Source of the DNA: Bolinopsis microptera
Lineage: Eukaryota > Ctenophora > Tentaculata > Lobata > Bolinopsidae
DNA length: 64,000 nucleotides
Assembly: GCF_026151205.1 (NCBI RefSeq)
Contig: NC_087072.1
Location: 20,178,103 to 20,242,102 of the forward strand
Reading direction: 5' to 3'
Part shown: positions 25,686 to 64,000 of the stretch, in pieces
Numbering within the stretch: the first letter of the stretch is position 1
Layout of the letters: every line of letters begins with the position of its first letter
Notes under the pieces: model-generated
The model's database searches: none
The model's input: only the letters and a program-made list of their open reading frames with translations
What the model was told of the DNA's origin: nothing
Translations under genes and position numbers: made by a program

Positions 25686-26783
25686 GTAAGATAATCTTGA
25701 TAATATAGTTCGGTTGTCCATAATAATGAAACGTTGTCAGTTCCTGTTTTCATACGAACCGATTAACACAAGGAAAATAAATGGCAACTCGCAACTTTTT
25801 TTAGATAACTGAATATGATGGAAATGCTTTGCCAATGTTCGGACGGCTGTATCACAACCGATGGCCTATCAATTTGGCTTCCTCTAATTTCGTGAAACAG
25901 TATCTCTCAAATTCTTATTGAGTAGGGACTTAGTTAAACAGAAAGCGGTACACACGAAAGGAAAAAGTTATTTTACCGTGAAAATTGAGTCAAAATTGTG
26001 TTGATTTGTCATCGGACACATGAGTGGGCATTGGGCAACTCAAACCAAATATCATTGGGCAGATAGACTTAAATCGTCATTAAAAAGAAGCCTTTTTCAT
26101 CCCACAGCTAAAGATTTAAAAGTCTCACTCACTCACTCCATATGTTAACATGTTAAATGCAGACGACTCTCAAATGCCGATCTTATCCCTCTATCGACGT
26201 GGTTACAGTCGCTACTCTAGTACTCTATGGTACGGTATGATCATCATTAAGACATTATCGGCGGACTCTACGGCCACGCTACAACTCCGTTGAGTCACTA
26301 TATTCGCGTACGTTGCCTACTAAGTGAGCTCTAGTCGCCTGAATTGTTCATTGATAGTGTGAGTCAAGGATCTAGACCAGATCATCGTTTTGTTTGAAAG
26401 TTGCACGGCAAACTAGCGCTTTGAAGCTCACATCAGATACTGTGGCAGCCTCACAACTGCTTTGATCATAATCAAGTTATTTATTTCGCTCTACAATTTC
26501 CCTTTTTGTCTTTTGAATGGAACATTGCAGTCAAGAACTGAGAACATAGTTCTGGTGAATTGTTATACTGTCAACAGCGCACAAAGTGTACGAAAATAAC
26601 AGCGTCTGCGACTTCTTAGATCAGGTAAACGCCTTTAGATATCTAGTACAATTTATTTTTTGCTTCTTGTTTAGAAATAGCTTCGTCAAAGCGTTAGTGC
26701 CATCCATCTTCGTCGTTACGATTTTTTCTCGTTTTTGCTCTGTCTTCCTAAGACACTAAGACACGTTTTGTCTCTTCTAAGAG

Positions 26784-37956: not shown

Positions 37957-38334
37957 GTTATTACTGGTCGTTAAATGTGTCTACTGCAGACTGCAAAATC
38001 TAGACCCATTTATTAAGTTCACATCGTATTACAAACTGCTTATTAACAGTATGATGTCTAAAGGAAAAATTGTTAAGACGCAGCTGGCGTAATAATTGTC
38101 ATCACGGTTTTCGCGGCAGTAACACCGTATAAATCGGTCATTCTCTAAAACACTTTACCATTAAAGTCTTGTATTCATGTAGTAATTTATATTGTATCTA
38201 ACAGAGAGAATCAGGTTTAAATAGTACCCTCAAAGCAGTCTCTATAATAAGTGTAGTGGTAATTCTAACCCGATGTTACTTATCAGAGACATGGTGTATT
38301 TATCATGATGGTAACATGTTTTATTTTCAGCTCG

Positions 38335-41300
38335 ATGGCGGCGGCGCCGGGTTTGCTTGCACCACGAGCACCGACACCCACTGCCGAGGAGAATGAGGGC
38401 AAGACTGTCGCTAACGGGCTTACGGATCAGAAAGTTATAAAGATTAACGTCTCAGGTAACTGTTTGTAAACTTTTATCAACTATTACCATACCTTAACTG
38501 TATACTGCAATTCTTTACTTTTTGGTTAAAGAATTTGAAATATTGTCCACTGCATAGTATTCCTATTTAATTTGTTAACAACGCAACACTTATTCTTGCT
38601 ACTGTGTTCATTCGTTAACTTTCGGCTACAACGTTTGACTTCAGTTATACTTTTTAGTTAAACAACATAAAATAATATCTGCTTCCAAGTATTGTTACAA
38701 TTAGATACATTTAATTTGTTAGAAGCAACTCTTAATTTTGTGAGTCAAGTATGTTCACTTACAACTCAAAAGCAGGTGCACCCATTGTCCAAGGCATCAC
38801 CACTTCTCTAGCATGTCAAATGTCTAAAATGGTCAAAGTTCGCCGTTTGTAATGGTCTATATTCTCACGGATAGACAGTATCTCAATCTGCCTGATTCGG
38901 GTTCCCGCCATCTTTTACTGCGGCTGGCTTTACCAAATTGTTAGGGAAATTTCCAGCCACATTGCATGTGATACCCTGCTGGAAGGCTTCAACCCGGGGC
39001 GACACTCAGCCCTGTCAGTAGCCTAAATAGGTTACCTACTCAACTGTCGTGATACTCTCTAATATGAAAATAATATCCTAGCCGCTTCACAATCCAGAAT
39101 CCTGTGTCTAGGATCTAGGGTAATTTCCTGGTCTGTAAGAAGCCCCGTGCTAGGGTGTAGCAGTAAAGAATCGACTAAAACGGTTCAGACTTCAGACAAT
39201 AATATAATAATTAAAAGAGGGTTAATATAGTTTGGGAAGTCTGTACTGGGATTTTATCAAGTCTGATAAAATTGTAGCCCAGGGAGGAATATTAGAATAG
39301 TCTGAGTCATAACTTTTCGAGTCCACGCAAGGCTTTACATCAGCTCTTTTTACACTGCCTTATTATTTCCTTGACGTAAAGAAAGTTTACCGACTGTACA
39401 GGGCCTTATTTCCAGTAAGTAGTTTCAACCGATTATATGTCCACTGAGAAGCATTAGCAATTTACCTGTAGCTTCAATCCTAATATCAGAATTAATATCT
39501 GAGAATTGTCTGGAATATTTTCAGACTCTACCGTATTTTTACAGCTAAGTGAATAACTTCTTTTGTAATGGCTATGTAACGGTAAGTGGTGTGTAACTGT
39601 AACCATTTTAGAAAAATGGATAGCCATAACTGAAAATGGATCGTAAATGCCATGAATCCATAAATATAGCCTACGTGGGCAGACTCTATACTATAAGTAT
39701 AACAGTGCTTGAGAATTTATAATGGCTAAGGCTTTGAAAATTGGCGAAGAGATGGCTCAAATCCATTTGGATGCGTGACAGCAATTAATAAACGACTTGC
39801 AACCAAATACTCAAATTTCTGACGTCTGCCATAACAGCTCACGTCATCCCCTTTTGTACCTGGTACCAGGCTGCAATTCAACTGAATTAGGTTGGGTTAC
39901 TTTGCTTCTGGGCATCTTAAACCGTAATAAACCAGAAATATAGATGTTCTGTTGAAGTTTCACCCCGGAAACCATATCTCGATTATAGATCGTTTATAAT
40001 TATAATAGGTAGGATTTCAAGTGATCACTCTATAATACCGGTATGTTAACGAGTATAAGTAGAACCTGCCTATTTAACGGGTGTATTGGCAATTGAGAAA
40101 ATTCCGTTTATTAAGCAGATAAGGTGTGTGACCCAAATCAGTATAATTAAGATGATTTCACACCATCAAACTTACCTAATATCAAATATGATTATTGATC
40201 AATAATTAATCATTGTTATTGATCGTAGATCTAGATTATCGAGCGAGGAGGTAGCTATAATTCATCTTACCCAGTGGAAATCGGGGTTAAAATCGTGGTT
40301 ATTTTGCAATTAAGTGAAAGCTAACGACTGTGACTTGTAACAGTCAACTTTTCTAGGCAGTTTCTAGGCATCCTAAAGACAGGAATAAGCTCTTATCAGC
40401 TCTACCCATTTTCTATGAATTGGCAACAATCCATTTTTTCAGGTTACAAGTTTTACACATATCTGTCGACATTGACAAACTATCCAGATACCCTACTTGG
40501 AAGCACTGATAGGGAATGTCATTTCAACAAGGATATTAACTGCTACTTTTTCGACAGGTTTTTGGAAGTTTTTTTTTTCCAATTTTGACTGTAATTGATG
40601 TTAAATATCTCTTCCCAATTATGTTTTAATTCCATGCAATTAAATATACAAAAATATATTTGCTAATACCTTTTAGTACATAAAAGTAGAACTGACCTGA
40701 AAATTGTGTTTCAGAAACAGAAAAGCTTTTGAAGCGATCCTCAACTTTTACAGAACCGGCCATCTTCAGTGTCCAAACTCTGTGGAAATAAAAGATGTAA
40801 GTTAACTGCTTTCATAAGATTGAGCTCCAATCACTTGATGTGATTTTTCGAGTCATCTGAACGAGCTAACGATCATTTTGATTTTGTTTATATTTTGACT
40901 AGTAATCTGAAATTTCAACATGCACATCATTATTATAAAATTTAAATATTGTGCATTTAAAAATGTCATCAAACAACTTTTTGTTAAAAATTCCACATTT
41001 TTGATGGTAGTTGATTATAAACCAGGCCACAGAACGACTGAATACAAATGTTCTGTTGAACTTGGAACATATTTTCACAAGAAAATAATCTCTCCTGATT
41101 CAGTTTGAAAATGAGCTCGAGTTTTTTCGGATCACAGCCAGAAACAACGAAGAGAACGCGCCCGCCAAGCGGAAACCACCACGACACAAGGGCTGGCCCC
41201 GATGGCAGCGGAAAATATATTATGTGGTAGCAGAGCCCGGCGAAGACATCAGATCCCGAATCTGGGCTTTCGTGGACACATTTTTCATATTATGTTCAAT

Positions 41301-44300
41301 CATTCTGTTTATTGCGGAAACCGAACCCTATTTCAAAGAAAGGATTGCCGAGAAGAACTCAACATGGTATTACGTGTTCTTCTGGGGGGATGCCGGATGT
41401 GTCTTGTTCTTCTCCGCGGACTTTTTAATCCGATTGGTAGTGTGGCCCGGTAAACTCGGTTTCGTAAAGTCAGTGTTGAACTGGTTAGACTTTTTAGCGA
41501 TCCTTCCATTCTTTATCATGATCATAACAGAATATATGATCAGTGGAGACCCAAATAACCCTGACGCAGCGGATGGAAGTAAAGGCCAATTTGTGGCTTT
41601 GAAGGTAAGAAATGTGATCGAACATAATTAAATTGGTTAAGAGGTCTAATATTTCGATTCCTCGACATTCTCAAATATACCAATAAATATATTAGGGCAA
41701 ATTATAATCTAAATGCTTGAATCTTACCTCTGCACACTATATCAAGTCGGCTGGAAGAGCACTCGAAATTTCGTTAGCTATGAATTCTCCGATGATAAAC
41801 TGCAACTGCTTCATTCTATTTATATGGACCATTATGTGAAACCTAGGAAATGTTTGATACATTTAAACGCGATAATTGAACTGTCCACATGTTTTGTCAG
41901 GTATGACATATTTTACAAGAGCTCTAAATAAGCCACAACAGCATTTACAATTGCATAAATGCATTAAATCCGTCACTTCTGTGTATATTTCTTCCTGGTT
42001 GCCGTGTAGTCTGTAGTCATGCATACTGCATAGCCACGGCGCTCGACTTGAAGGAAATATGCATATCCTACCTACCTATTGAACCATATTTTATTTCGGA
42101 ATAAATAAGCAACAAAATACAATTAGATATCGGCTTGGTGGTCTAGGGGTATGATTCTCGCTTAGGGTGCGAGAGGTCCCGGGTTCAATTCCCGGCCAAG
42201 CCCATCTTTTGACAAATCTTCTAAATTGTAAATGCTCCAGTATGAGTAATTATATAATCATCCAGGTGCTAAGATTAATGAGGGTAATCAGATTACTGAA
42301 ACTCGCAAGGCACAGTGACCAGCTGATGATCATTGTCAATGTTCTCAAGAAAAGGTTTGCTTTTTTCATAGCTAAATTTCGTGTTCAATTTTCTGCAATT
42401 TTATTATTTAGAATCGAAATTTATGTTTTAATCAAATTGACAAATTTGACCGGCCTTCCTCCTAAATCATGTCAGTTTACATTTCGTCATATCACCAATA
42501 AACACTAATAAAACCACGATCCCAACCTCAGTTTGAACGAGTTAAGCATACTGGTCCTGTTATGGATGATTGGTATAGTGACGTTCGGCTCGATAATCTA
42601 CTACGCGGATAATAACGAGGAAGTTAGTGAAGAAGATGGCGAGGTAGTGAGTACAATGTGTATAAACATAAAGCATGACAGCAGCTCTACTTGACAGCCT
42701 GCTCTACTGTGACAGCCTGCAGTGAGCAGTGATGATATGTTGCACCCCACCGTATCCGAGTGCCCTTGCATACATGTTGAAGTTGCAACCAGCGCCATTT
42801 GTATATATTGGCATGGCAACTACTGTCAATTTAATGCATATATATTGGAGAGTTGGCATAGCAGCCATAGCCAGCTTGCATATATATATATTGGCACAGT
42901 AAATATTGCCAATCAGCAATATTTATCGCCAAATAATTATCCCTCGTCAATGTCGCGCTGTCCCTCCTTTTTGCTTTTTAAGCAACTTGTGATCATAAGA
43001 ATGTCAACAAGCTTGACAGATATGTTTGAGTTTAGAAGCCATGTTTCCTGACCGTGTGTTTTACGCCCCCTCCATGTAGATGTGCCAATGTGTCACGTGT
43101 TAACCAACTCGGAATATATTGTGTGTAATAATGTATGAAATGTTGCACGATTGTGTGTGAATATATTCGTAGCTGCTCGTGAACAATGTTTCTAATTATA
43201 TCACCGATGACTCGACCGAACTGAATCTAAATCTGATACAATCTGGGAAAGTATAACATCTGTACTAACTTGGGATTAAAATGACTTTGGGTTCTCTTCG
43301 CCAAGTATGACTAATTGATTAAGTGATTATGATGAAATCCCTACTTTTCTGATCTTTAAGCGAATCACTTACAGTGGGATACCCTCTATTCTCACATTCT
43401 GAACAATTTCGGAATTGATAGTGAAAAATTGTCAATAATTTGGAAGCTCTTTAAAATGCATGTATAATCAACTGTGCTTATATTAATTAGTTTAACTGCT
43501 ATTCATGTGCAATGTGCATTGCTTTTGCTTTTCATCTTGAGACCAATCACCAACAAAAGTTTTTTATAAATTTCATTGATTATTCCTGAATATCCTGATT
43601 AGCATGATTGAATTGGACCCGGAATGGCGGTTTCAAAGAAGAGATCCTCAGAAAAGTTGTATTTTAAGGCACTTTTTTGGGGCAGGCTGCCTCAACAATG
43701 TGATTGAATAATGAATAGTAATATATGTATTATGTATGCTGTTGCTTCTGGAGTTTCAAAAGTATAAATAAGTTTGATGCTTTTAATGCTTAATGCACCA
43801 TTTTTCGTTGCCATGAATTAGCTAGATTACTCAATACTCATTTAGATTTTTGACAATTTATCACTATAAATCCCGATAAATTTATCAGGGACTTTGTTAG
43901 GAGTTGTTAAAGTTATCAATAAATACTGCAGTATGAAAGGGGACTCACGTGGTCATCATAAAATTCGCATTTTAAACTACAATTAGTTTGAAGGTAAACA
44001 TTGATTTCATAAATGTGAAATTTTAAGACACGACAGAAAAAAGGTAGAGAAGTTTGTACCACTACCTCCTTATTACCCGAAATACAATCTACCAAACAGA
44101 CGGTAGGAATTTGCACTGGCGGTCAAAATACGCCAACTATACATAGAAAGCTTCACAAAGCTTCATTGGAAGGGCTCCGGATCATGCTGTTTATACTATT
44201 GTATTCAATACCTCTTCTCATTTTGAGATGAGAAATATCTCTTCTCATTTTGAGATGTGAAATGATTTTCAAAATATTCGTGCTGCTTTGTTTTGCAATA

Positions 44301-45166
44301 ACGCTTTTTTACACGCTTTTCAAAATCCACAATTTTCCTAATATGCTGTAATTGTTGTATGCTTATGGTCGCTTATTAACCAATTAATTAAATTTTGAAT
44401 TATGCAATAAGTACAATTGACAAATTTTGGGAAAACTTACTATGAGTTATCTTGCAAAACTTAAAGGCCGCTCGTCAAATTCCATGCATTCGAAAGCTTT
44501 TTGTAAATGGCAGTTTGCTAAAAATAGGTTGTCGAATGCACACCACGGATACATTGAAAGTTGTTGACATCTAATTGGGATTACCACTCGACATGCTCAT
44601 TAGGCGCCGCTCACTATAAACACTGCCCAAGCATAACGAATTTCCTTTGCACTGGCACGAACCTTCTCGAACTTATTCGCACATTAGTTGAAAGAAATTA
44701 CGAGAACCCCCGATACGTTGGTATGCTCAAAAAGACGTGTATTTGGGCAAACATTCTAGCAGTGGGAAAATATTGTAGCAAAATAGGGCCTTAACCAGGA
44801 CAAACTCCAGGACAAACTCCAAATTTTGTATCATTAGCACATCACAATATCACTGTTGTTCAAAACAAACATTTTCAGCAATCAGAACTGAAATCTATTA
44901 TGATGGGCTGCTGGTGGGCGGTTGTAACAATGTCAACAGTTGGTTACGGCGATATAGTTCCAAAGACTGGTGCCGGTAAAGTTCTCGGCTCTGTCGTCGT
45001 GTTCCTGTCCATGATATTCCTCGCCTTGCCAATGACAATTATCGTGAGCAAGTTCAGTTCCTGCTACGACGATCTCAAGTACCAGGACGAGGACGATCGT
45101 TACTACGAGTCGTCCGATGAGGAGGACGAGGAAGATCCAGCAGAGTTCCCCAATCACAAGGCCTGA
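38335..45166 (+). CDS. Voltage-gated K+ channel alpha subunit (Shaker superfamily), common core
   Basis: Seven coding exons with matching phases: 38335-38455, 40443-40557, 40715-40796, 41104-41604, 42266-42354, 42532-42643, 44879-45166 (1308 nt, 435 aa). The exon containing the ATG has an acceptor at 38330, so 5' exons exist. T1 tetramerisation domain about residues 33-116 (motifs [24 protein letters not shown]). S1 about 159-177; S1-S2 loop with sequon NST at 191; S2 with F209 and D212 (charge-transfer site); S3 with D235. S4 carries K273, R276, R279, R282, K285, R288. S5 about 305-327, pore helix and filter TVGYGD at 360-365, S6 about 375-396. The protein should form a tetrameric K+ pore in the plasma membrane. 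Oddities: S6 reads P391-M-T where most Kv have PVP; T1 lacks the Zn-binding Cys pair of Shab/Shal/Shaw; the C-tail is only about 38 residues, acidic, with no PDZ ligand. Family is certain; subfamily is not. Confidence 0.95.
38456..40442 (+). other. First intron of the channel core
   Basis: 1987 bp separating the T1 start (INVSG) from the rest of T1. Phase 1. No embedded gene seen. Confidence 0.85.
42132..42203 (+). tRNA. tRNA-Pro(AGG)
   Basis: 72 nt cloverleaf: 7-bp acceptor stem GGCTTGG/CCAAGCC, A-box TGGTCTAGGGG, anticodon loop TTAGGGT (anticodon AGG) on stem CTCGC/GCGAG, B-box GGTTCAATTCC, discriminator C, and a T4 Pol III terminator at 42207. It lies in sense orientation inside the channel intron 41605-42265. 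Confidence 0.95.
42644..44878 (+). other. Intron between S5 and the pore exon
   Basis: 2235 bp, phase 0. Contains TA-rich patches at 42780-42900 and no gene. Confidence 0.85.
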
Positions 45167-45622: not shown

Positions 45623-46155
45623 TGATATCAAAAATGGTAAGTAACGTCAAATAAATCAGAAAATGTTTTCCTAGAGAAAGATAGATCGAGACAGTCAAAA
45701 TCTTAAATAAATAACCAATATTATCAGTAACAAAGATACATATGCACTAAGCAGAAAATCAACAAATCGAACTGAACATAATATGATATTACCAATATAT
45801 GATTAAGAATTAGAAATAAATGTTGCGGGTAAAGAGAATCGGATGTAAAAAGCTATTGATAATTTCACGAATTGTCCCGCAAGGTGGCACAACAGTTCTC
45901 TATACTTTATACTCGTCCGGCTGGAGTTTTCAAGTCGTCAATCAGTTATGTCAGTATTAATACTTCATTTCTTCGAAGGTAGAATATAGTGATCATCATT
46001 TCTTTTTGTTGTAAAATAAGGTCATCGGGGCTTCCTGAGAAGAACCTATGAAGTTTGACAGACAGGAGCAGGGAAAAACAACAGTAACTAACAGTCAAAA
46101 ATCCGATTAACCGATTCGTTGAAAATCGGGAATTAAGGCAAACCACTATTCAGAA

Positions 46156-46351: not shown

Positions 46352-47460
46352 TACATATAATACACTCTAATTCAAGTACTCAAAACAGATGCATCCAGCT
46401 TTAAAGGATAAAGGTACAAACCTTGCGTTTCCATGTTTCCAGCCAAACATTCTCCAATGTAACATCATTAGCGAGCGTCTTCTTGTTACAAGTCAACTCT
46501 ATTTCGTCCTGATAAACAATATCTATTATTCACACAAACAAAGATATCATTGTTTGTTAAAACAATAACTTCAAATGGACCCATCTTTAATTTATCAAGT
46601 TATTGGTCGAGTTAAACACGTCTCATTACCCGAGGAGAATTTAAAGTCATTATCAAGCACGACACCCCGTGATATGATTATTAGGTCCGTTTATCTGCAC
46701 CACGACTATTACACCTATCACTCGCGTGTTTAACCATTTTCGTTTAACCTAACCTATTGACCTATTGAGGTCAATAGACAAAGTAAGAGTAGTAGGTCAA
46801 ATTTAAGAATTTGAATCGGTAATAAACCTTTTTATCTTTGCTTGATCTTCCGCGTAATTGAAACAAGTGGGGATCCAGACTCTACGGCGTAAGACTCTAC
46901 GGCGGCGCCGTAAAAAAACAAGATTCTAGGGGGGCGTGAAAATCTCTAAAGCGTGAAAAAGCAGGACTCTACGGCGTGAAATATTATTTTCTCTATTTTC
47001 GATCAAAATAGATATAATTTTATTTTTAATTAGGATGTCCGTCGTCACAGGGAGTGTTCTTTCAAAGTCAGTTTTTACTCGTTAAAGTCCCGGACCCAAA
47101 CAAGTGATGTTACATCCTTTTCTAAACTCAATTGTATGCTCATGTCATATCTGTAATTCAATTACTTCATGTTTGAAATTCCTCACCTGTATCTTTCTTT
47201 ATCGTATTTCTATGAAATTGTACGGCCAATGGCCAATGCTAAGTAGTAGAGTTTCTCTTTATCGAGTTAGACGAGCGCCCGCTCTAAATAATCAGTTCAA
47301 CATATTAATATTAAGTGCGCGCGCGATCTGATCTAGCTTAGCTTAGCTATATAGCTTAGCTAGTATATATAGTGCGCGTACATATATTTGCGCAGAGCAT
47401 TCTATAATTTTACTGATGCGATTTCCAGATACATGTTTTCAGTAGATGAATCCATAAATT

Positions 47461-48300
47461 TGGAACATGGGCACATCGCAGTATTTGCCGTATTTGAATG
47501 CTAGGAAGGCTCAGTTCGGTTTTCTAAGATGGATATAGCCGTAAGCTAGGCCTAGGAGCCATCAAAAGTCGTATAAAATTACCCATGGAATGACCAGAAA
47601 TGAACGAAAATGAACATTATTCTCAAAGTGCTCAGAATGGTTTAAAATGGGTCGGAAAGTGTTTACATTGGTCCTAGGACCACTCAAACCAAGTTTGGGA
47701 ATCACTGTATGTCTAGAACCGATGTGAAGGTGGTTCCAATTTTGATTTTTGTAACCATTTTGGGAACATGGGGACATCGAAGTATTGGCTGTATTTAAGT
47801 GCTGGGAAGCCTCAATTCGGTTTTCTAAGATGGATATAGGTAAAAACTAGGCCTAAGAGCCATCAAAACTCAAATAACATTACCCAGGTTCATGGAATGA
47901 ACGAAAATGAACAAAAATTAATATTGTCCTAAAAATGCTCAGAACGGTTTAAAATTGGTCGGAAAATGTTTATATTAGTCCTAGGACCACTCAAACCAAG
48001 TTTGCGAATCACTGCATGTCTAGAACCGATGTTACCAATGTTCCAAAATGTTCCAATTTTGGCACAATAATCCTCCTGAGAATCCAGATTTTTGGAACAT
48101 GGGCACATCGAAGTATTGGTTGTATTTAAGTGCTGGGAAGCCTCAATTCGGTTTTCTAAGATGGATATAGGTAAAAACTAGGTCTAAGAGCCATCAAAAG
48201 TCAAATAACATTACCCAGGTTCATGGAATGAACGAAATCGTGTAAATCGTGTAAATGAACAAAAATGAAAATTTTCCTTAAAGCGCTCAGAATGGTAAGA
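47461..48300 (+). repeat. Left half of inverted satellite, three units of 300-332 bp
   Basis: Units start with TGGAACATGGGCACATCG at 47461, 47761 and 48093. They include TTTAAAATTGGTCGGAAA and a GGTCCTAGGACC palindrome. Orientation is opposite to the array at 49721-51750. Confidence 0.85.
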
Positions 48301-48489
48301 AAATGGTGGCAAAGAGTCAATATTTTCGTCCAACAGAGTCTTAAAGTTGCATTCAGAATTATGTACAATTAGCACACGTACCTCCAAGAGAAGGCAGAAA
48401 TTATTTTATTGGGCAACTATTTTGGTTTTAATAATCCCCCAATATATTGATATAAATTTTTGACATCATTAGCTGTATTTGTTCGTTGA

Positions 48490-48660: not shown

Positions 48661-48915
48661 AGATAAAGAGGTAGGCTCATCAATTTAGTGAAGGGATTCA
48701 TTGTCGTTGTAGTTGTTGTGGTTAACAGAGAGGGAAAATGATTTGTATAACTTAATTATCTATTTATTCTCTTCTTATTCATTAACAAGCTTGCTAAGTT
48801 AATCCTATTGTTGATGACCTGATCTGATCTTACGCCTCTACATCCGATCACACCAAATAAGATCGGATAACCTTGCTACGCTCGGATCACCTTATTTTTT
48901 TTCTACCAGTTAGAT

Positions 48916-49422
48916 TTTTTTCTACCAGTTAGATTTAGAATAGATTTTAAGATTGCCCTACTTGCCTACAAGTGTTTAAATAATATAGCTCCTCCTTACT
49001 TAAAAGAGTTGATATCTCCTAGGCAGCAAAGTTTAAAAAATGTACGTCTTGATAATGATTATTTTTACCTTAGTTTTCCGCCCTCTCCTAACTATGTAAA
49101 CACAGAGAAAGCTTTTAGTCACTGTGCAGTTAAAGTATTTAATTCCTTGCCATACGACATAAGATCATCTGAGTCAGTTACATCTTTCAAGACCAAACTT
49201 GAAACATACTTCTTTTCTCTAGCATTTGATTGATTTTGCATTTACATAGGCAAAATGAACTTGTCATGTCTTATTTTCAATTAAACTAAGCTCAGTTAAT
49301 GTAAGAGCCGCTTTAGAAAGCACTGGAGTTTATCTCCAGGATTAAATTATATCGAGTTATATGATTTAGCTATAACTCTATAAGGCGGTTTATAAATGTT
49401 GTATTTATTATTATTATTATTC
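48916..49422 (+). mobile_element. 5'-truncated CR1/L2-type LINE (RT C-terminus and 3' tail)
   Basis: The frame up to the TGA at 49233 shows the standard non-LTR C-terminus: LPVRFRIDFKIALLAYKCLN, then YLKEL, then FNSLPYDIRSSESVTSFKTK. A 190-bp 3' UTR follows, ending in a TTA microsatellite typical of CR1/L2 tails. The catalytic RT core and endonuclease are absent. The element splits the inverted satellite arrays. Confidence 0.85.
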
Positions 49423-49544: not shown

Positions 49545-51750
49545 AATCACTGCATGCCCAGAACCGATACGAGGGGTGCAGAATACCGAACCATCTTAAC
49601 AGTACAGTAAATGAATAGTCTGTTGATTGGCCTTATGACTCTTTCGTAAACTCTTTGGAATTGCTCAGAGCGGTTTAAAATTGGTCGGAAAGTGTTTGTA
49701 TTGGTCCTAAGACCACTCGAATTGGAACATTTTGGAACATTGGTAACATCGGTTCTAGACATGCAGTCATTCCCAAACTTGGTTTGAGTGGTCCTAGGAC
49801 CAATATAAACACTTACCGACCAATTTTAAACCGTTCTGAGAATTTTAAGGACATATATCCATTTTTGTTCATTTTCGTTCATTCCATGAACCTGGGTAAT
49901 ATTATTTGACTTTTGATGGCTCTTAGGCCTAGTTTTTACCTATATTCATCTTAGAAAAACGAATTGAGGCTTCCCAGCACTTAAATACAGCCAATACTTC
50001 GATGTGCCCATGTTCCAAAAATCTGGATTCTCAGGAGAATTATTGTGACAAAATTGGAACATTTTGGGACATTGGTAACATCGGTTCTAGACATGCAGTG
50101 ATTCCCAAACTTGGTTTGAGTGGTCCTAGGCCCAATATAAACACTTTCCGACCAATTTTAAACCATTCTGAGCACTTTGAGAAGAATGTTCATTTTCGTT
50201 CATTTCTGGTCATTTCATGGGTAATTTTATACGACTTTGATGGCTCCTAGGCCTAGCTTACGGATATATCCATCTTAGAAAACCGAATTGAGGCTTCCCA
50301 GCACTTAAATACAGCCAATACTTCGATGTGCCCATGTTCCAAAAATCTGGATTCTCAGGAGAATTATTGTGACAAAATTGGAACATTTTGGAACATTGGT
50401 AACATCGGTTCTAGACATGCAGTGATTCCCAAACTTGGTTTGAGTGGTCCTAGGACTAATATAAACACTTTCCGACCAATTTTAAACCGTTCTGAGTATT
50501 TTTAGGACAATATTCATTTTTGTTCATTTTCGTTCATTCCATGAACCTGGGTAATGTTATTTGAGTTTTGATGGCTCTTAGGCCTAGTTTTTACCGATAT
50601 CCATCTTAGAAAACCGAATTGAGGCTTCCCCGCACTTAAATACAGCCAATACTTCGACGTGCCCATGTTCCAAAAATCTGGATTCTCAGGAGGATTATTG
50701 TGCCAAAATTGGAACATTTTGGAACATTGGTAACATCGGTTCTAGACATGCAGTGATTCCCAAACTTGGTTTGAGTGGTCCTAGGACTAATATTAACACT
50801 TTCCGACCAATTTTAAACCGTTCTGAGCATTTTTAGGACAATATTCATTTTTGTTCATTTTCGTTCATTCCATGAACCTGGGTAATGTTATTTGAGTTTT
50901 GATGGTTCTTAGGCCTAGTTTTTACCTATATCCATCTTAAAAAACCGAATTGAGGCTTCCCAGCACTTAAATACAGCCAATACTTCGGTGTGCCCATGTT
51001 CCAAAAATCTGGATTCTCAGGAGGATTATTGTGACAAAATTGGAACATTTTGGAACATTTTGGAACATTGGTAACATCGGTTCTAGACATGCAGTGATTC
51101 CCAAACTTGGTTTGAGTGGTCCTAGGACTAATATTAACACTTTCCGACCAATTTTAAACCGTTCTGAGCATTTTTAGGACAATATTCATTTTTGTTCATT
51201 TTCGTTCATTCCATGAACCTGGGTAATGTTATTTGAGTTTTGATGGTTCTTAGGCCTAGTTTTTACCTTTATCCATCTTAAAAAACCGAATTGAGGCTTC
51301 CCAGCACTTAAATACAGCCAATACTTCGATGTGCCCATGTTCCAAAAATCTGGATTCTCAGGAGGATTATTGTGACAAAATTGGAACATTTTGGAACATT
51401 TTGGAACATTGGTAACATCGGTTCTAGACATGCAGTGATTCCCAAACTTGGTTTGAGTGGTCCTAGGACTAATATAAACACTTTCCGACCAATTTTAAAC
51501 CGTTCTGAGCATTTTTAGGACAATATTCATTTTTGTTCATTTTCGTTCATTCCATGAACCTGGGTAATGTTATGCTACTTTCGATGGCCCCTAGACCTAG
51601 CTTGCAAATATATCCATCATTTACAATTATTTTTGGCACTATTTAGAGCTCATTAGGGCAAATAAATGCATGGCACACTTTTGGCACAATTTTGGCACAT
51701 GTTCCAAAAATGTTCCAAAAATGTTCCAAAAATCTGGATTCATCAACTCC
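49545..51750 (-). repeat. Right half of inverted satellite, about six units of 324-341 bp
   Basis: TCCCAAACTTGGTTTGAG occurs at 49771, 50103, 50427, 50758, 51099 and 51440. The first about 175 bp (49545-49720) are still in the + orientation, so the switch point is near 49720. Each unit carries a 60-80 codon minus-strand frame that is only repeat-borne. Confidence 0.9.
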
Positions 51751-52205: not shown

Positions 52206-54659
52206 TCAAGTAGCCATTGTGTCTATATCCCTAATCAGTAAACTGAGTGTAAAGGCCTTTGTTTCAGAGCACACGTAAAACCAGTCAGGTTTCGGTGAAA
52301 GTGGCTACCTTAATACAAGTGACAAACTTTGCGTCTGCTCTGAGACTAATTGAAATGACGTGTAAAAACTAACTGAAATTAGAGTCTTTTGTTTGATGTA
52401 CTTCGTGAGATGCTCCACTTTGAGTTTCATGGAACAGCGGATGAATTTCATGGGCATCTGCGGAATTGATAGTTCCTTCCTGTGGATAGATTAATGTTTA
52501 AAAATTGGATAATATAAGTATCATTTTTAATTATTATTATAATTAAAATTTGATAATATAATTACTTCTTTTTATTATGATATAATTATTGAATATACAG
52601 ACTATTTTGATGACTCACTTAACGGGCTCTATACAGAGAGACATTTTCAAATCGTTTGTATGGAACCACGTTCTACCATCATCCGGGGGAAACTTGGCTG
52701 GTTCTGAGTCTACAAATTGGGAGTGTTAATAAACATAAAGTCATTTTAGCACCTTTGAAATTTAGTAGTTAAACTCAGTGCTGCATTTACGAAACATAAT
52801 GATTTAATCCATATTATAACATTGTTACACTAGGAACTTAATTAAAAGAGCTGAAAATTACTCAAGATAAATCACAAATCTCGAAAGGTTCGAAATCCCT
52901 CAACTATTTCGGATAACAATTTGTAAGCAAAAAAGTGTCGGTCAGAAAGGAAAAATATTCGAAGACTGGTACTAGGAAGTCTTGGTATTATTTACCTTGG
53001 GTATTAGGAGTTATGGGACGGGAGCTGTTACCATTGAGAGGCACTGACAATCCTCTGTTAGCGTAGAAATCATTCCGCCTCTTTATCTCACTCTCCATCA
53101 GCCCAGGTACCAGCTTGTTTATTACGTCTTGTAGTTTTGTGTCAGTCCTGAAACCACAAGTGGCTTGATGTTGTGATGTTAACACGTCATAACATTCAAT
53201 TTAACAAAACTATAACACAAACATCAATAACATTGTGATTCATAATCTATAAATAAGATTATGTGTATTTGGAAGTCACAATTAACACCGTTCCCAAACT
53301 TGCGATCCTTCACTCCAGTCTAAAAACGTATTCTTAAAGGCAAGAGGAATTACCCGATATACTGCATGGGAGCTGTTTCGTGGATCAGGATTTTACACTG
53401 GGGACAGGTTTGTCTTGTCTGCAGGTGTTTTACTAAACACGATTTACAAACTGAAGAAAACAGGATTTTATATTATCATGTCTGTAAAAGGTGCCGCCTG
53501 TTTTTTTCAAGCGATACTAATTAAATTAATACTAATTGATCATGATAGATATAATATGAAAGACAGTCAAAAATGTAAATTTCTATAACGTGACTCACAA
53601 GAGTGCAGGCATTCTGTGACAGTGGTAGCATCCACAATGTAGCCGCTACATATACTGCAAACTATGTGCTCGTTCAACTCTTTCAACTTCATTGCAGCCT
53701 GAAATGTTTAAAATGTAAATAATCGACATACCAGGAATCTACCAGAATGCCACTCTGGCTTCATTCTCAAATATAATATCGATTATAGGTAAAAATACCA
53801 ATCTATCAAGAGTTTGCATATGAAAAGGTTTGAAGTGTTAGAAAAATTCATCCTCAGAATCAATGGAATACTGCAGTGTTACCTCTTTTTTCACAACAGT
53901 AATCTTGATTTCAGATTTGCGGCGTTTAGGTGCAGGTTTTTCAGGAACAGCAAAAGATTCAGGACGAACAACCGCCTTAATGTCGCAAACCAAGCAATCA
54001 TCGTCATCATCGTGTCCTTTCCATTCGACTGGTATTATTTCTGCAAGATATTGGATAAACTATATCATTTTATATACAACAAGAGATAGCTGTAATGTTG
54101 ATTGTATAGTATAAATAGTAAATACAGCAATGTAATCAATAAAACAGTAACTTAAATGTGCCAATTTATGACTTGATAAGCTCTGTAGTGATCCCAGTTA
54201 TAAGACAGATAATAAAACCAACCTTTTACTTTGTTGCTTGGTTCTGATATCTGGGACTGACAGTTGAAACATAAGTACCTGAGGGGTAGTCGTATTCACA
54301 ATCTATTTATATTTTATCAATCTTCGGCGATGTCAGCTTAAAATAAATCCGCAAAGCCAGCACTCACTAGACTAATGCTCGATTATATTTTCAACATAGC
54401 CAGTATTCAGTAAGTTGGTAATTATTTAAATTAAACGAATTTAACAAGTTCATGTGTATCTACGCTCAATGAACTTGTTTTCTTACTTTGGATGAACATC
54501 AGTCCTGTCGTCCGAAATGTCAACACCGAACACCTCCTTAATCTGTGTCTCAAAGGTTTGACTGTGATAGGGCCGTCCTTTGTTGCGACGCTCGCCACAG
54601 ATCCTACACAGTTTCTGAAGATTGTTGTAGTGCTCCGGCTGGTGCGTTGTCATTTTCAT
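52206..54659 (-). CDS. RAG1-N-like zinc module fused to PCGF3/5-like RING and RAWUL-like tail
   Basis: Nine exons on the minus strand: 54659-54487, 54278-54223, 54040-53883, 53698-53599, 53450-53354, 53147-52996, 52709-52619, 52479-52374, 52304-52206 (1032 nt, 343 aa, stop TGA). Every junction keeps frame at GT-AG sites. Residues 17-95 match the RAG1 N-terminal zinc region in order: LCRICG (C18, C21), VFGVDI, H56-P, C61-x2-C64, VEW and H86, C92-x2-C95; a basic KRRK follows. Residues 143-181 are a perfect C3HC4 RING. It and the next segment ([29 protein letters not shown]) are diagnostic of Polycomb PCGF3/5, partners of RING1 E3 ligases in PRC1 complexes. Residues about 268-343 resemble a shortened RAWUL domain. 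Expected to be a nuclear chromatin or DNA-binding protein. The last exon is the least certain, and more 5' coding sequence is possible. The fusion order is read directly; its function is unknown. Confidence 0.85.
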
Positions 54660-55667: not shown

Positions 55668-56651
55668 CTAAGTACATTTATTTTTGGTAACCAAATAATC
55701 AGCAACATTATACATAACAAACATTTTGTGATAGTAATACTCATTACTGGCAGGTTCAGTAGGAGGATTTCTCTTATAATATAATTTATGAGGATCAAAG
55801 AGTGGGTTAACAAAATCCTTGTAAAGAGGATAAGGCATAGCACAGTCTCCGGGAATATAATTATTTTTGTCTGAGATACGCTCATCAAGACGGTCACATC
55901 GTGAATGTTTAGGACAAAATCTACCCCCGTTATACTGTATGTAGTCCAAACTCAAATTCTCAGGTGAAATGACATCGTGACAGTGTACTCGACTTTTTGA
56001 CGTTTTACGAGACCAAACATCATCCCTGTGAAGTTCCATAACATGAACTTCCTCGCCTGCTGAGTTGAGACAACTTGCCGTTTTTGTGATAAAACCACAT
56101 TTTCCTTTTCTGAAACAGTTAGGGACTCCCGGATGTTGGAAATGGTACATGGTAGCCTCGTCAGTCATCTCACTTACAAACAGGGTTACATTTTCTTCAT
56201 TTGAGGACAAGACATCGCTATGTTTTATCAATTTCAAAAGTTGAATGTATTCTTTGTTATCAGGATGGAAATCATTGTGGTTTGCAAACTTTTGGCATCG
56301 TTTGTATCGCGTCAATTCCCGTCCCCATTCATTAAGACACGAACACTTAGATTTACGATACATACTATACCTCATAGATTCCAAGCCGTTGAGTATTTTT
56401 CTTACATAATCTCTGTGAGCTCTAGTGAAGCCTCGCTTGCAACAAATGTCTTCTATCTGCTCAAGAATGCTACAAGGATCAATCTTAGGCAGCTCCCCAT
56501 CAGCAAACTTTAAAATTATGTACACAATGAAATCAACAACATTATGAACACTTTCAACAAGTTTGTGTTGACTTATGTGGACCACATCTGTTGAATCTAG
56601 AAAAACCCACTCCCTCATCCAATCAAAATTTTTTCCCGATCCATGACTCAA
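55668..56651 (-). CDS. Intronless Cys/His-rich protein, family not recognised
   Basis: A 327-aa uninterrupted frame from ATG (MSHGSGKNFDWMREW) to stop. No family is recognised. The N-terminal third looks helical (VESVHNVVDFIVYIILKF). The central and C-terminal parts hold many Cys and His residues, with possible metal-ligand clusters around residues 104-120 (CSC then C), 180-215, and 245-255 (CPKHSRC). The C-terminus is aromatic-rich (YYYHKMFVMYNVADYL). No signal peptide or clear membrane span. Intronless in a locus where neighbours are spliced, and tail-to-head with another intronless gene, so it may belong to a lineage-specific or retrocopied family. A poly(A) signal lies about 50 bp after the stop. 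Confidence 0.7.
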   Translation of the reverse strand: MSHGSGKNFDWMREWVFLDSTDVVHISQHKLVESVHNVVDFIVYIILKFADGELPKIDPCSILEQIEDICCKRGFTRAHRDYVRKILNGLESMRYSMYRKSKCSCLNEWGRELTRYKRCQKFANHNDFHPDNKEYIQLLKLIKHSDVLSSNEENVTLFVSEMTDEATMYHFQHPGVPNCFRKGKCGFITKTASCLNSAGEEVHVMELHRDDVWSRKTSKSRVHCHDVISPENLSLDYIQYNGGRFCPKHSRCDRLDERISDKNNYIPGDCAMPYPLYKDFVNPLFDPHKLYYKRNPPTEPASNEYYYHKMFVMYNVADYLVTKNKCT

Positions 56652-57019
56652 AGTGCCGAAGACACAAAAGAGTCAAGGACAAGGGTTAGCGATTGAGGTT
56701 TTTTTTTGTATATGGTAGCTTTGCGACCGTGCGTGCGTGCGTGCCCTCGCCCCCAGTCTAGTTATCGCCCACGTGTCTGCCTGCGCAAAGTTATTTTGCG
56801 CGATCATCTGAATTAAACAATTGTTGGCGCGCGGTGCTGAAATGTTCAAGTACATTGTTAATTTTACCATGTACGCATCCCGATAGGGACTAATTGATAG
56901 CATTGTATTATTATTTTGAGTTAGTATTACTATTTTGCACAGATCCGTGTCAGGTTGCATAAACAATAAACATATAGTTACATAGAAATATACACGATTT
57001 TCAAATTCAATATCTAGAA
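56652..57019. promoter_or_regulatory. GC-rich intergenic strip, likely promoter of the 327-aa gene
   Basis: GC peak at 56720-56840 with a GCGTGCGTGCGTGC run, a CACGTG at 56770 and GCGCGC words, directly upstream of the minus-strand start at 56651. Confidence 0.4.
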
Positions 57020-58114
57020 TTATATCAACTGGGCGGCGCTCGGCCTGTCACTTCGCCATATCTGCATGCTTATAAACAGCAAAGACTGGGGTCCCCAGGT
57101 GGTACTGGTATGGAATATGATAGAATACTTCATCCCGGATCGGGAAATTGAGCGGCCATCCACAAAAGAAAAGCGGCCGCATTTCTTGTTGAGATTGTAT
57201 ATTTGTTGTATATCCTGAAACATCGGATATTTAGTGGAATCAGCAACAGTGTGACACACAAACTTCATATCTTCCAGTGACTGAGATCCGAACTTTGTCA
57301 TCAGGATTTCGACAACCTGGTGATACAATTGCGGTTGCCTAATTCTGCAGAGGGATAAGTTTACATTTTCTATCAGGTACCTACATGCAGAGCCATCAGC
57401 CAGCCCAGATTCCTTGTTATCGTTGTCCCCAACAAGTCTGATAACTATTTCCAACAAGATATTCAGCTGAGGATATGGAATGATCCGAAGAAGAACATCA
57501 ATATCTAGACGACTAAAGTTGTTAACCTGAAGCTTAACGAATTCCTTGCCAAATTGTGGACCGTCATCATAAAACATGTTAGCAGCTATTTCCCTATGCT
57601 GATGATTATCAATAAACAAATCAATAAATGACCTGAATCGGTATCCCCATTCTTTATCATCTCCCCATATTCTAATCATGTATTTGCACTCCTCCAAAAG
57701 AAACATAGAGTCACTAAACTCCCATTCCTTCATTTGGAAATCAATTCGACCAGCGCTTTCATTGTAGTCTCTTAGATTACTAATACCATTTATTAACCCT
57801 TTTGACTGAATAAATCTTTTTATGTAGAGATATAGATGACATGCATCTCTCATCCAAGATATGTCAAATACCATGATCAGTTTATGAAGTTCTCTTAAAT
57901 GCTGCTTCTCAATGAAATCAAACCATTTAGTATCTGAATCTAAATATGTCAAAAACAATACGACAGTTTCAGTGCTGAAATCCAGTAGATCTATCTCTGT
58001 TTGGTAGAGCTCATTGATCATTTCATCAAAGACTGGACTGTCTGTGACTAAAATGTCACGGCTGACTGTTAATGGATCTTGACCTTGCACTTTGATTATT
58101 ATCAGATCCTCCAT
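57020..58114 (-). CDS. Intronless BTB/POZ-like protein
   Basis: A 364-aa single-exon frame. The first about 100 residues have the BTB pattern: beta-strand start (LIIIKVQGQDPLTVSRDILV), buried DSPVFDEMI, an acidic strand (IDLLDFSTETVVLFLTYLD), then LHKLIMVFDISWMRDACHLYL as the helical second half. Residues about 100-220 are helical and BACK-like (FLLEECKYMIRIW). No Kelch repeats, MATH or zinc fingers are seen, so the C-terminus (about 220-364) is unassigned. BTB proteins of this sort usually dimerise and often recruit CUL3, which here is inference. Strong as a gene; moderate as a BTB member. Confidence 0.72.
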   Translation of the reverse strand: MEDLIIIKVQGQDPLTVSRDILVTDSPVFDEMINELYQTEIDLLDFSTETVVLFLTYLDSDTKWFDFIEKQHLRELHKLIMVFDISWMRDACHLYLYIKRFIQSKGLINGISNLRDYNESAGRIDFQMKEWEFSDSMFLLEECKYMIRIWGDDKEWGYRFRSFIDLFIDNHQHREIAANMFYDDGPQFGKEFVKLQVNNFSRLDIDVLLRIIPYPQLNILLEIVIRLVGDNDNKESGLADGSACRYLIENVNLSLCRIRQPQLYHQVVEILMTKFGSQSLEDMKFVCHTVADSTKYPMFQDIQQIYNLNKKCGRFSFVDGRSISRSGMKYSIIFHTSTTWGPQSLLFISMQIWRSDRPSAAQLI

Positions 58115-58599
58115 ACTATACCTTGGGAGTGCAGTGGTGATAAAATTAGCATATTATAGATGTTAATAAAATTTATGAAGTTACGGCAGCAGAATAAACA
58201 CTAAAATTCAGTTATGTATCAATTGCAATTCTTCTGAAAATAAGAAATTATTCCCTTTTAATAATAATGGAAAACATTTCAGTTTGATCGACTAAGCTGA
58301 CAGATTATTGATTAATTAAGTCATTCAAGTTAATTACATTTGTTGCACATATACATGTACATAGAGGCCATAGTACGATGAGTACTGTATAAGATTCCGG
58401 TAGGAATAATTTGATATGCGATATCAGGACATGAGGACAGGGCCTACAAGCTTGGTTTTGGATTAAAAGGTGCTAGGACAATTTACAATCTTCTAGCAAG
58501 ACCCCTTTCAATATACAGACTGGCTAGTTTGGATATTCTCGGCTCAAAGTTGTTACAGTTAAACCACTATTTACCGCAGATTTGGGAGAAAGGAAGCAT
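58115..58599. other. Upstream region of the BTB-like gene
   Basis: AT-rich; no gene seen. Confidence 0.4.
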
Positions 58600-59474
58600 C
58601 TGCGAACCGCGGTAAATCAGGTTTTGAACTGTTCAACATTTATGATAGTAGATAAAAGTAGATATTTAGAGGATCAATTAAAATGATCTCAAGCAACAAA
58701 GATCAAGCGCAGTAAAATCGATAATTTTGCATGATTGTAGTCAGCAACTATAGACTAAAATGTAATAAAGACAATGGGAATTAGTATGGATTAGTTGATT
58801 GACGATGTCAACCCTTCAAGATCGTTGCTCTGTGAAGGGATCTACAAAGGGTTCTACAAAGGAATCTACAAAGGGATCTACAAAGGGATCTACGAAGAGA
58901 TCTACAAAGGGACTCACAAAGGGATCCACGAAGAGATCTACAAAGGGATCCACAAAAGGATCTACGAAGAGATCTACAAAGGGACTCACAAAGGGATCCA
59001 CGAAGAGATCTACAAAGGGATCTACAAAGGGATCTACGAAAAGATCTACAAAGGGATCCACAAAGGGATTTACGAAGCAATCTAAGAAGGGATTTAAGAA
59101 GGAATATAAGAATGGATTTACAATGGGATTTGCGAAGGGTCTATGCATCTTCAATGCGAAGCAAGAATGATAGTTTGTGCAGTACGTCGAAGCGGCGAAG
59201 TCCTCCAAATGGATTAGTTGATCAACCTTCCCTGTGAGAACGAGGATAAGATTTGCAATGTTGAAACAACTCTTATTACTCTACGAGGCCAGGGTAACGA
59301 GGAAAGAAGGTGGACACCAAACACAAGATCCATCTATCAGAAGAACACCTGCGAACTGCGGTTAATAAGGGTTTAAACTTTTCAAAATTTCTGATAGTAG
59401 ATAAAAGTAAATATTTAGAGGACTAATGAAAATGATCTCAAGCAACAAAGATCAAGCGCAGTAAAATCGATAAA
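58600..59474. repeat. Pair of about 125-bp direct repeats
   Basis: 58600-58724 and 59349-59474 share 'gatagtagataaaagta', 'atatttagagga' and 'gatctcaagcaacaaagatc'. They bracket the 12-bp minisatellite at a spacing of about 750 bp. Confidence 0.8.
58834..59150. repeat. 12-bp minisatellite, more than 20 copies
   Basis: GAAGGGATCTAC and variants (AAAGGGATCCAC, GAAGAGATCTAC), decaying towards the right end. Since 12 is a multiple of 3, several frames on both strands stay open (GSTK, GIYK and VDPF repeats). There is no independent sign that any is translated. Confidence 0.9.
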
Positions 59475-60491: not shown

Positions 60492-60762
60492 CTTTGACAC
60501 AGTGGCGTAACGAAAGGCCCTGCTGACCCCGCTGTGCAGGGGGGGGCGCCGTCTTAGGGGGGCGCCAAATCGTCGTTTGAATGTGGGACAATTTCGAAAA
60601 CTTAACTAAAGTACTAGCAAAACTGCGCGTTTTGCTCTAGATACACACTTTTTTAGAGATTTTACCGGCGTATTCTTTAAAGGGGGGGGGGTGTCATGTC
60701 CGTCTATGTCCGCCTATGTCCTGTCCTTTTTGGATTCTATGAGACAACGGACGTGTTTTTTG

Positions 60763-60905
60763 GGACATTGGCGGACACGGACGGACATTGGCGGACTCGG
60801 ACGGACATTGGCGGACTCGGACGGACATTGGCGGACCCGGACGGACATTGGCGGACTTGGACGGACATTGGTGGACATTGGCGGACATTGGTGGACATTA
60901 GCGGA
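60763..60905. repeat. 20-bp tandem array inside the hAT element
   Basis: GGACATTGGCGGACTCGGAC unit, about seven copies, degenerating to shorter units on the right. Confidence 0.85.
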
Positions 60906-60949
60906 CAAACATTTTTAGGACTGAAGAGTACTGAAGAGTACTGAAGAGT

Positions 60950-62680
60950 ACTGAGGAAGATGCCTGAGGAGGATGACTGAGAGGGAGGAGAAGGATCTGG
61001 AAGACCCAGGAGGAGGAGGAGGAGGAGGACCCAGAAGGAGGACCTAGGAGGAGGAGGAGAACTGAGGAGGATAACTGAGGAGGAGGAGGACTCAGGAGGA
61101 GGACTGAGGAGGACTGAGAAGGAGGAGGACTGAGGAGGATGGCTGAGGAGGATGGCTGAGGAGGAGGACCCAGGAAAAGGCCCCAGGAGGAAGAGGAGGA
61201 CTGGGGAGGAGGACAACTGTTGAGGACTGATGAGGAGGACTGAGGACGAGGAGGAGGAGTAGGAGGAGGACTGAGGAGGGGAGGAGGAAGAGGACTGGGG
61301 AGGATCAGGAGGACCCAGGAGGAGGAGGAGGAGGAGGAGGACCCAGGAGGAGGAGGAGGACTGAGGAGGACTGAGGAGGACTGAGGAGGAGGACTGACGA
61401 TGACTGAGAAGGAGGAGGACTGAGGAGTACTGAGGAGGATGGCTGAGGAGGATGGCTGGGGAGGATGGCTGAGGAGGATGACTGAGGAGGATGACTGAGA
61501 GGGAGGAGGAGGAGGACTCAGGAGGAGGACTCAGGAGGAAGAGGAGGAGGAGGACTCAGGAGGAGGACTTAGGAGAAATGAGAAGGAGGACTGAGGAGAA
61601 CTGAGAAGGAGGAGGAGGACTGAATAGGAGGAGGAGAAGGAGGGGGACTGGGAGAGGACTGGGGAGGAGGAGGACTGATGAGAAGGATGAGGAGGAGGAC
61701 CCAGGAGGAGGACGACTGAGGACCGAGGAGGATGAAGAGGAAGAGGAGGACCCAGGAGGAGGAGGACTGAGGAGGACTGAGGAGGATGGCTGAGGAGGAT
61801 GACTGAGAGGGAAGAGGAGGAGGAGGAGGAGGACTCAGGAGGAGGAGGAGGAGGACTGAGGAGGACTGAGGAGGACTGAGAAGGAGGAGGAGGACTGAAT
61901 AGGAGGAGGAGGAGGGGGACTGGGGGAGGACTGAGGAGGAGGACTCAGGAGGAAGAGGAGGAGGAGGACTCAGGAGGAGGACTGAGGAGGACTGAGAAGG
62001 AGGAGGACTGAGGAGAATGGCTGAGGAGGATGGCTGAGGAGGAGGACCCAGGAAAAGGCCCCAGGAGGAGGAGGAGGACTGGGGAGGAGGACAACTGTTG
62101 AGGACTGATGAGGAGGACTGAGGACGAGGAAGAGGAGTAGGAGGAGGACTGAGGAGGGGAGGAGGAAGAGGACTGGGGAGGATCAGGAAGACCCAGGAGG
62201 ACCCAGGAGGAGGAGGAGGAGGAGGACCCAGGAGGAGGAGGAGGACTGAGGAGGACTGAGGAGGACTGAGGAGGAGGACTGACGATGACTGAGAAGGAGG
62301 AGGACTGAGGAGTACTGAGGAGGATGGCTGAGGAGGATGGCTGGGGAGGATGGCTGAGGAGGATGACTGAGGAGGATGACTGAGAGGGAGGAGGAGGAGG
62401 ACTCAGGAGGAGGACTCAGGAGGAAGAGGAGGAGGAGGACTCAGGAGGAGGACTTAGGAGAAATGAGAAGGAGGACTGAGGAGAACTGAGAAGGAGGAGG
62501 AGGACTGAATAGGAGGAGGAGAAGGAGGGGGACTGGGAGAGGACTGGGGAGGAGGAGGACTGATGAGAAGGATGAGGAGGAGGACCCAGGAGGAGGAGGA
62601 CTGAGGAGGGGAGGAGGAAGAGGACTGAGGAAGATCAGGAAGACCCAGGAAGAGGAGGAGGAAGAGTAGGAGGAGGAAGC
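60950..62680 (+). repeat. Purine-rich GAGGA/GAGGACTGA satellite with 878-bp higher-order copy
   Basis: Nearly homopurine over 1.7 kb. CAACTGTTGAGGACTGATGA occurs at 61214 and 62092, and the flanking block is repeated. Confidence 0.85.
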
Positions 62681-62829
62681 ATCTAAATGTTATTTCCATT
62701 TTTGTCCGTTTTTGTCCGTTTTTGTCCGCTCTATTTTTTGTCCGTTTTGAAAATATAGGGTACCGAACGGACAAAAAACATGATCCCCCTATAACAGCAA
62801 AAATTGAACATTTTATTTAGCAATTTAGG

Positions 62830-62940: not shown

Positions 62941-63109
62941 TTTTGGATTCTATGAGACAAGCGGACATAGACGGACGTGACACCCCCCCCCCCCTTTAAA
63001 ATCACCTAATTTGTTCAATTTTAGGGAGGGGCACCAAAAGGGGAGGGGGCGCCAACAGGGGGGCGCTTTTTTCGGCAGGGGGGCGCCAACAGGCAACGTT
63101 ACGCCACTG

Positions 63110-63512
63110 CTTTGACAATCCTTTTGTTGTACATGTTTTTCTTCTGTCTCTCATGGCTAGTGTACATGCTCATTGGAGATCCAAGAGCCTTACTGGAAGG
63201 AGCTTGAGCATGAAATACTTTTACATCTAAAAATGCCCTTTCCAATGGGTTCCATACACTCCTAGCACTAACATCTAACCTAGCTCCATCTGCTTTGTTG
63301 GCCCCTGCAGGAAGTTCTCTCCCATTGACAGGGATAAGGAGAGATTCAGTGGCAACATCTTTACAGCCAGCAGTTTCTAAGAGCTCTGCTAACACATCTC
63401 TCAATGAATTGTGGCGAAGAGATACATACCCACCCCTTTTGCATATTAATGAGTGGTTTATTGAGTTATCACTTCCACATACACATTTTCTTGCAGCATC
63501 TATTATTAACAT
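63110..63512 (-). pseudogene. Retroelement-derived nuclease-like C-terminal domain, cut by the hAT insertion
   Basis: The minus frame has CVCGSDNSINHSLICKRGGY, then LRHNSLRDVLAELLE, then ARLDVSAR and AFLDVKVFHA. This is the Cys/His knuckle plus 'LRHN.iRD' and 'D...FDVxV' pattern found in a PD-(D/E)XK-like domain at the end of some invertebrate retroelement polyproteins. The reading frame runs into the hAT terminal repeat at 63109. On the far side of the element (below 60492) the frame stays open for about 30 codons, but the conserved motif expected there is not seen. Confidence 0.6.
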
Positions 63513-64000
63513 TGATTATTATATCATTGATTATTTATTGGGATTGATTATTACATCATTGATTATTTATTGGGATTCTACAGTCTCCAAAACAAAGTAC
63601 GAAGGTAATTTATTTTTGAGCTTTGATTTGGTGACTGCTTCATCAATGGGCTGGTAGGTATTTGTTTTTTAGCAGTGTTGAAAATTGAAGCAATTATAAA
63701 ATGTATATCTCTATCATATGGACACGTTCAAAAAAAGGTGGCACTAGAGATTGATTTTTTTAAATGCGTTTTAAAAATAGTCATTGCTCTTTGTTGGTTG
63801 ATATATCTATCTATACCTTTAGAAATTCGATTAAATTTCATGATCCTGAAATCACGGAGTCTCTAGTGCTTATATCACAGGAGTTATCGTTATTAGTGTG
63901 CCAATGAGTCAAAAGTCACACAATTAGAAATGCAAGATGAATCAACACTAGATAATCTGAAAAGTAATATTCACAAAGAAGCCAAAATTGATATGGTGAC
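63513..64000. other. No gene seen; 33-bp duplication
   Basis: 'ttgattatttattgggatt' is repeated around 63520-63570. The rest is AT-rich. Confidence 0.4.

Follow-up and report, generated by a model that had tools for sequence, protein, structure and literature searches.

The central non-core domain (CND) of mouse RAG1, the recombinase of vertebrate antibody genes, is monomeric and mainly nuclear, and carries two zinc ions that are required for its folding and DNA binding (PMC3124419). The literature found describes this domain in RAG1 and RAG1-like proteins and in mobile elements, and the source of the RAG1 N-terminal region is unsettled. In animals, RING1 and a PCGF protein form the RING-RING heterodimer of Polycomb repressive complex 1 (PRC1), and the PCGF family is otherwise described as RING plus RAWUL (PMC10638273). 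Here we describe a gene that joins both kinds of domain in the lobate ctenophore Bolinopsis microptera, whose phylum is often, though not without debate, placed at the base of the animal tree (PMC10027918). It lies on the minus strand at 54659-45996 of a 64,000-nt stretch of contig NC_087072.1 (forward-strand positions 20,178,103 to 20,242,102), hereafter the window, and encodes a PCGF protein with an N-terminal RAG1-like zinc module.

The gene spans 8.66 kb and comprises 10 exons encoding 352 residues, and was modelled with the help of three related proteins, P0001, P0002 and P0003. Exons 1 to 8 (54659-52374) are flanked by AG acceptors and GT donors and join in consistent phase; the 311 residues that they encode comprise the RAG1-like zinc region and a RING and run into the RAWUL domain. 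Exon 1 (54487-54659; residues 1-58, from the start ATG to a split last codon) carries the H-x7-CRICG and VFGVDI..HP motifs of the CND within a PF12560 match, and exon 2 (54223-54278; residues 58-77, codons split at both ends) carries its CFNC motif, both exons being colinear with P0001. Since a donor seven bases earlier, after 54230, introduces a stop, the end of exon 2 was fixed at 54223. Exon 3 (53883-54040; residues 77-129) holds the third CND motif, VEW..H..CLVC, and a linker with the basic patch PKRRK (53930-53916), and ends in phase 0. The PCGF RING is divided between exon 4 (53599-53698; residues 130-163, with C143, C146, C159 and H161) and exon 5 (53354-53450; residues 163-195), and is followed by a PCGF segment in exon 6 (52996-53147; residues 195-246), the stretch preceding the RAWUL in exon 7 (52619-52709; residues 246-276) and the first half of the RAWUL in exon 8 (52374-52479; residues 276-311). 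A 5.9-kb intron 8 separates these from exon 9 (46422-46508; residues 312-340, the second half of the RAWUL) and exon 10 (45996-46034; residues 341-352 and the TGA stop), which were located by tblastn of P0001-P0003 and checked for splice sites. A first-pass annotation, made from the sequence alone, had proposed nine exons and 343 residues; its first eight exons were retained, while its ninth (52304-52206) was discarded, since nothing in P0001 corresponds to it and the C-terminus of that protein is instead encoded at 46508-46422 and 46034-45996. Intron 8 itself contains two arrays of one repeat of about 330 bp (47448-48324 and 49664-51600; TRF periods 331 and 341), mostly in opposite orientation to each other and with long pieces 83-98% identical.

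A protein search with 400 candidates returned 212 proteins at E up to 1e-3, the best 120 of which were listed. At its top stood the three relatives: P0001 showed 97% identity over 100% of the query and comes from a 1407-bp contig encoding 352 residues; P0002 (76% identity over 99%; 1324-bp contig) has the same architecture as the window protein, and P0003 (1124-bp contig) matches its C-terminal three quarters, with 45% identity over 73% of the query in the search and 50% in the alignment. The window protein and P0001 differ in 11 residues. Each of the nine junction peptides recurs in P0001; in two of them a residue next to the junction is substituted, and in one a residue three positions further along. 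Compared with an 8.66-kb gene, such short contigs holding an open frame should therefore derive from spliced RNA. P0003 starts at VEW..H..C.VC without the first CND motifs, perhaps due to a cut contig, and covers the protein from the third motif through linker and RING to the RAWUL. Four residues that it has in excess within the RING, at about the position of intron 4, suggest another splice site. Through these apparently spliced sequences, a real CND-PCGF fusion is supported over its whole length by P0001 and P0002 and over part of it by P0003, and the joining of a RAG1-type zinc module to a PCGF RING-RAWUL protein, as proposed at first pass, is seen in the P0001 and P0002 contigs.

Alternatively, two adjacent genes, a free CND gene and a PCGF gene starting at Met132, might have been merged only in the first-pass model, and the frame of exon 3 does stay open for 15 codons further, to a stop within intron 3, while an ATG is found at 53692 within exon 4. 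Yet both parts are joined in the 1407-bp and 1324-bp contigs, and Met132 is conserved in neither relative, being Ile in P0001 and Val in P0002. In these relatives the contigs include the upstream module, at odds with the PCGF-only transcripts from residue 132 that the first-pass annotation had considered; a two-gene arrangement is already contradicted by P0001 and P0002, and we consider it extremely improbable.

Residues 10-96 of the fusion protein resemble the RAG1 CND. PF12560 (RAG1 importin binding; cut-off 23.3 bits) matched the 311-residue window protein at 31.3 bits and its residues 1-98 at 34.1 bits, both above the cut-off, as well as P0002 (30.6 bits whole, 26.3 on the first 97 residues) and the first 72 residues of P0003 (23.9 bits). 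The Smith-Waterman score against the mouse RAG1 CND was 83, which none of 2000 shuffles reached (highest 54). A PDB search with the window N-terminus retrieved RAG1 (21wb) at E 0.03, and an N-terminal profile placed RAG1 best, at E 0.0022, 0.04 and 0.04, with the next unrelated chain at 1.1; this profile was built from three N-termini, P0003 having been dropped from the original four rows because MAFFT put its VEW motif at the alignment start. At the sequence level, the resemblance to RAG1 is beyond chance: the motif order reported earlier (CRICG, VFGVDI..HP, CxxC, VEW..H, CLVC) is present in exons 1-8, and the similarity to RAG1 was borne out by both PF12560 and the PDB profile. Among seven regions compared between the window protein and P0002, the CND core (residues 10-70) was the most conserved (53/61), against 77/95 in the RING, 54/72 in the RAWUL and 21/33 in the linker, which we take as a probable sign of constraint. 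The basic patch following the CND reads PKRRK in the window, PKRRR in P0002, PKRKR in P0003 and HKRRK in P0001. Of 34 candidates in a search for other CND proteins with residues 1-132 of P0001, only P0001 itself and P0002 stayed within an E of 10, and nine pattern matches in viral contigs included no relatives.

The same region could also be a domain of ZAD type (zf-AD), extended by one motif, which would serve Polycomb self-association and not DNA contact, its likeness to RAG1 then reflecting a deeper ZAD-CND kinship. zf-AD (PF07776) matched residues 17-69 at 23.9 bits in the window and 23.7 bits in P0002, and the zf-AD model also matched the mouse RAG1 CND (21wb), at 17.6 bits (E 0.0045) and in the register of the ctenophore domain. 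This shared register hints at a relation between CND and ZAD, which the one paper found to name both domains (PMC4999995) does not draw in the part available; some ZADs, moreover, dimerise (PMC5081699). However, the RAG1 CND is a monomer (PMC3124419), and zf-AD stayed below its cut-off of 28 (23.9 bits, and 25.4 on a 63-residue piece), and was outscored by PF12560 on the same window and P0002 pieces (34.1 and 26.3 bits) and on 63-residue pieces (31.3 vs 25.4, and 27.1 vs 24.9). No ZAD protein occurred among the four PDB matches of the N-terminal profile. A ZAD-type module for self-association thus appears to us unlikely.

The remainder of the protein is of PCGF type. Its C3HC4 RING matched PF13923 and PF00097 above their cut-offs, with PCGF chains as the best PDB matches, and PF16207 matched the RAWUL of P0001 at 59.9 bits (cut-off 33.5), the corresponding region in the window being encoded by exons 8-10. 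An NCBIfam search gave RAD18 far below its cut-off, and the Pfam matches of P0001-P0003, taken up to an E of 10, include no recombinase core of RNase-H type. With respect to subgroup, human PCGF1 was the best solved relative, pairwise scores slightly favoured PCGF3, and in a tree without PCGF5 and PCGF6 rows the fusion proteins formed their own clade (100/99) between PCGF1 and PCGF3, on long branches. The earlier assignment to PCGF3/5 therefore stands for the family and is not established for the subgroup.

It had further been suggested that the zinc-RING part of RAG1 and PCGF share a history, which the RING comparison does not support. Among the best 60 of 176 matches, the RAG1 RING region scored highest outside RAG1 with TRAF6 (40.7 bits), BRCA1 (38.3) and TRIM21 (37.3), followed by LNX (35.3), RNF125 (33.5), a RING2-BMI1 chimera (31.8) and PCGF5 (25.5); conversely, no RAG1 chain appeared among the best 60 of 129 PDB matches for P0001 or the best 60 of 131 for P0002. 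A special link between the RAG1 and PCGF RINGs is accordingly unsupported, as is a common CND-RING ancestor, because the RAG1 RING is nearer to TRAF6, BRCA1 and TRIM21 than to PCGF. The order of CND, basic stretch and RING therefore occurs with two different RINGs, which could have come about by either separate joining or replacement. The CND/PCGF boundary coincides with a phase-0 intron, consistent with what exon shuffling would leave.

Based on the gene structure, the relatives' spliced sequences, homology and conservation, we read the locus as an expressed ctenophore PCGF gene, with a RING and a RAWUL placed between PCGF1 and PCGF3, which bears an N-terminal RAG1 CND homologue and would have a PRC1 or chromatin role; we judge this somewhat likelier to be right than wrong. 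RAWUL domains recruit accessory subunits, and PCGF1/BCOR structures among the fold matches listed fit such recruitment. As in other PCGF proteins, RING1 would be the partner of the RING, and an accessory subunit of PRC1 that of the RAWUL, while the CND and basic patch, as in RAG1, would form a zinc-folded nuclear, DNA-binding module, so that the CND could hold a PRC1 variant on chromatin, where histone H2A would be ubiquitylated. The basic patch sits about where RAG1 has its basic motif BII (residues 222-225; PMC3124419). Because the RAG1 CND binds zinc and DNA, the patch is placed about like BII, PCGF proteins pair with RING1 and RAWULs recruit subunits, the protein is likely a PRC1 subunit that brings along a module for DNA contact, for which we infer complex membership, zinc and DNA binding and tethering by analogy.

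Several observations weigh against this interpretation, beginning with the fact that its functional part is reached by inference. PF12560 was marginal for P0001 (23.5 bits vs the 23.3 cut-off) and just under the cut-off for whole P0003 (22.5 bits), and within the PDB profile match to RAG1 no single stretch exceeded 13.1 bits. Conservation relative to P0002 is lower in the third CND motif (17/28), the third motif and linker of the window alone gave no Pfam match, and His56 is replaced by Gln in P0001. The predicted structure was weak, RING included (mean pLDDT, a model-confidence score, of 61.7), with moderate confidence for the CND; among the fold matches listed for it there was neither RAG1 nor a ZAD protein, but the RAWUL (residues 261-352) fills that list. 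Finally, no annotated Bolinopsis or Mnemiopsis protein of CND-PCGF architecture was among the best 120 of the 212 matches, nor any annotated protein of these species among the two matches of the CND search, though the database includes both; the annotated models may be split, of other length or missing, a record may lie inside the P0001 cluster, or Mnemiopsis may be without the gene.

As to origin, the CND exons may have been captured from an element of Chapaev or N-RAG type that had landed in front of a PCGF gene, in which case the protein might direct silencing by Polycomb towards elements related to it, a scenario compatible with the PRC1-subunit reading. CND (Chapa) domains occur in TransibSU and Chapaev elements, in some cases ahead of a RING, and Aplysia has an N-RAG element (PMC4411706, PMC8355894); Transib-like proteins have also been reported from ctenophores (PMC9435367). 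On the other hand, the module is spread over three exons, and exons 1-3 have no second DNA copy within the 64-kb window, which is weak evidence either way, terminal inverted repeats not having been sought. Domestication from a mobile element seems improbable to us on this evidence. We hold as similarly doubtful the converse, that the CND was an early-animal host chromatin module, kept on a ctenophore Polycomb protein and taken from the host by the RAG/Transib lineage; if true, the non-core zinc region of RAG1 would be a borrowed chromatin-targeting device.

In the window, the fusion gene lies tail to tail with a plus-strand gene for a Kv (Shaker-like) potassium channel (38332-45163), whose exon at 41104-41607 is identical to a Bolinopsis microptera protein at 168/168 residues and 90% identical to Mnemiopsis leidyi (both Lobata). 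Two distant 5′ pieces, near 25540-25686 and perhaps at 2137-2244, match Bolinopsis and Mnemiopsis protein N-termini and may represent alternative first exons. On the minus strand, a 377-residue open frame (57020-58153) that matches BTB weakly (16.8 bits against a cut-off of 20.5) lies upstream of the fusion gene, and between the two a 334-residue open frame (55668-56672, minus strand) without Pfam match at E up to 0.1. Frames at 48871-49233 and 63099-63515, to which Pfam gave no match, resemble tails of retrotransposon reverse-transcriptase proteins, and long low-complexity repeats occupy 58799-59280 and 60737-62816 as STKG-type and Ser/Pro-rich frames.

No description of a CND-PCGF fusion was found in the titles and abstract beginnings of the literature searched. 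The RAG1 CND would thus also occur outside recombinases, on what looks like an ordinary chromatin protein, and a host Polycomb gene with a CND opens the way to asking about the function of the domain in the absence of a recombinase and about the direction of its transfer. Compared with ZAD proteins, the fusion protein shares the CxxC..CxxC pattern (residues 17-69), and differs in its extra third motif, the lack of C2H2 fingers and a score below the Pfam cut-off. Chapaev, TransibSU and N-RAG-TP elements, compared by description only, likewise carry a RAG1-type N-terminal zinc domain outside RAG1, which precedes a RING in two Chapaev subgroups (PMC4411706), whereas the ctenophore gene is a multi-exon Polycomb gene with no transposase part. 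With mouse RAG1 (PDB 21wb, 6oem) it has in common the order H-x7-CRICG, (I/V)F..D(I/V)..HP, CxxC and VEW..H..CxxC, then a basic stretch and a RING; unlike RAG1, the spacing between the first motifs is shorter, the RING is of PCGF type and followed by a RAWUL, and the 352 residues include no recombinase core. With PCGF1 and PCGF3 of non-canonical PRC1, it shares the RING, the LQD..KLVPGL segment and the RAWUL, but it has an extra 129-residue N-terminus with the CND and basic linker and forms a clade of its own. Judged by its sequence, this is a new PCGF architecture built with a RAG1-type domain, by which the PCGF family gains an unusual member.
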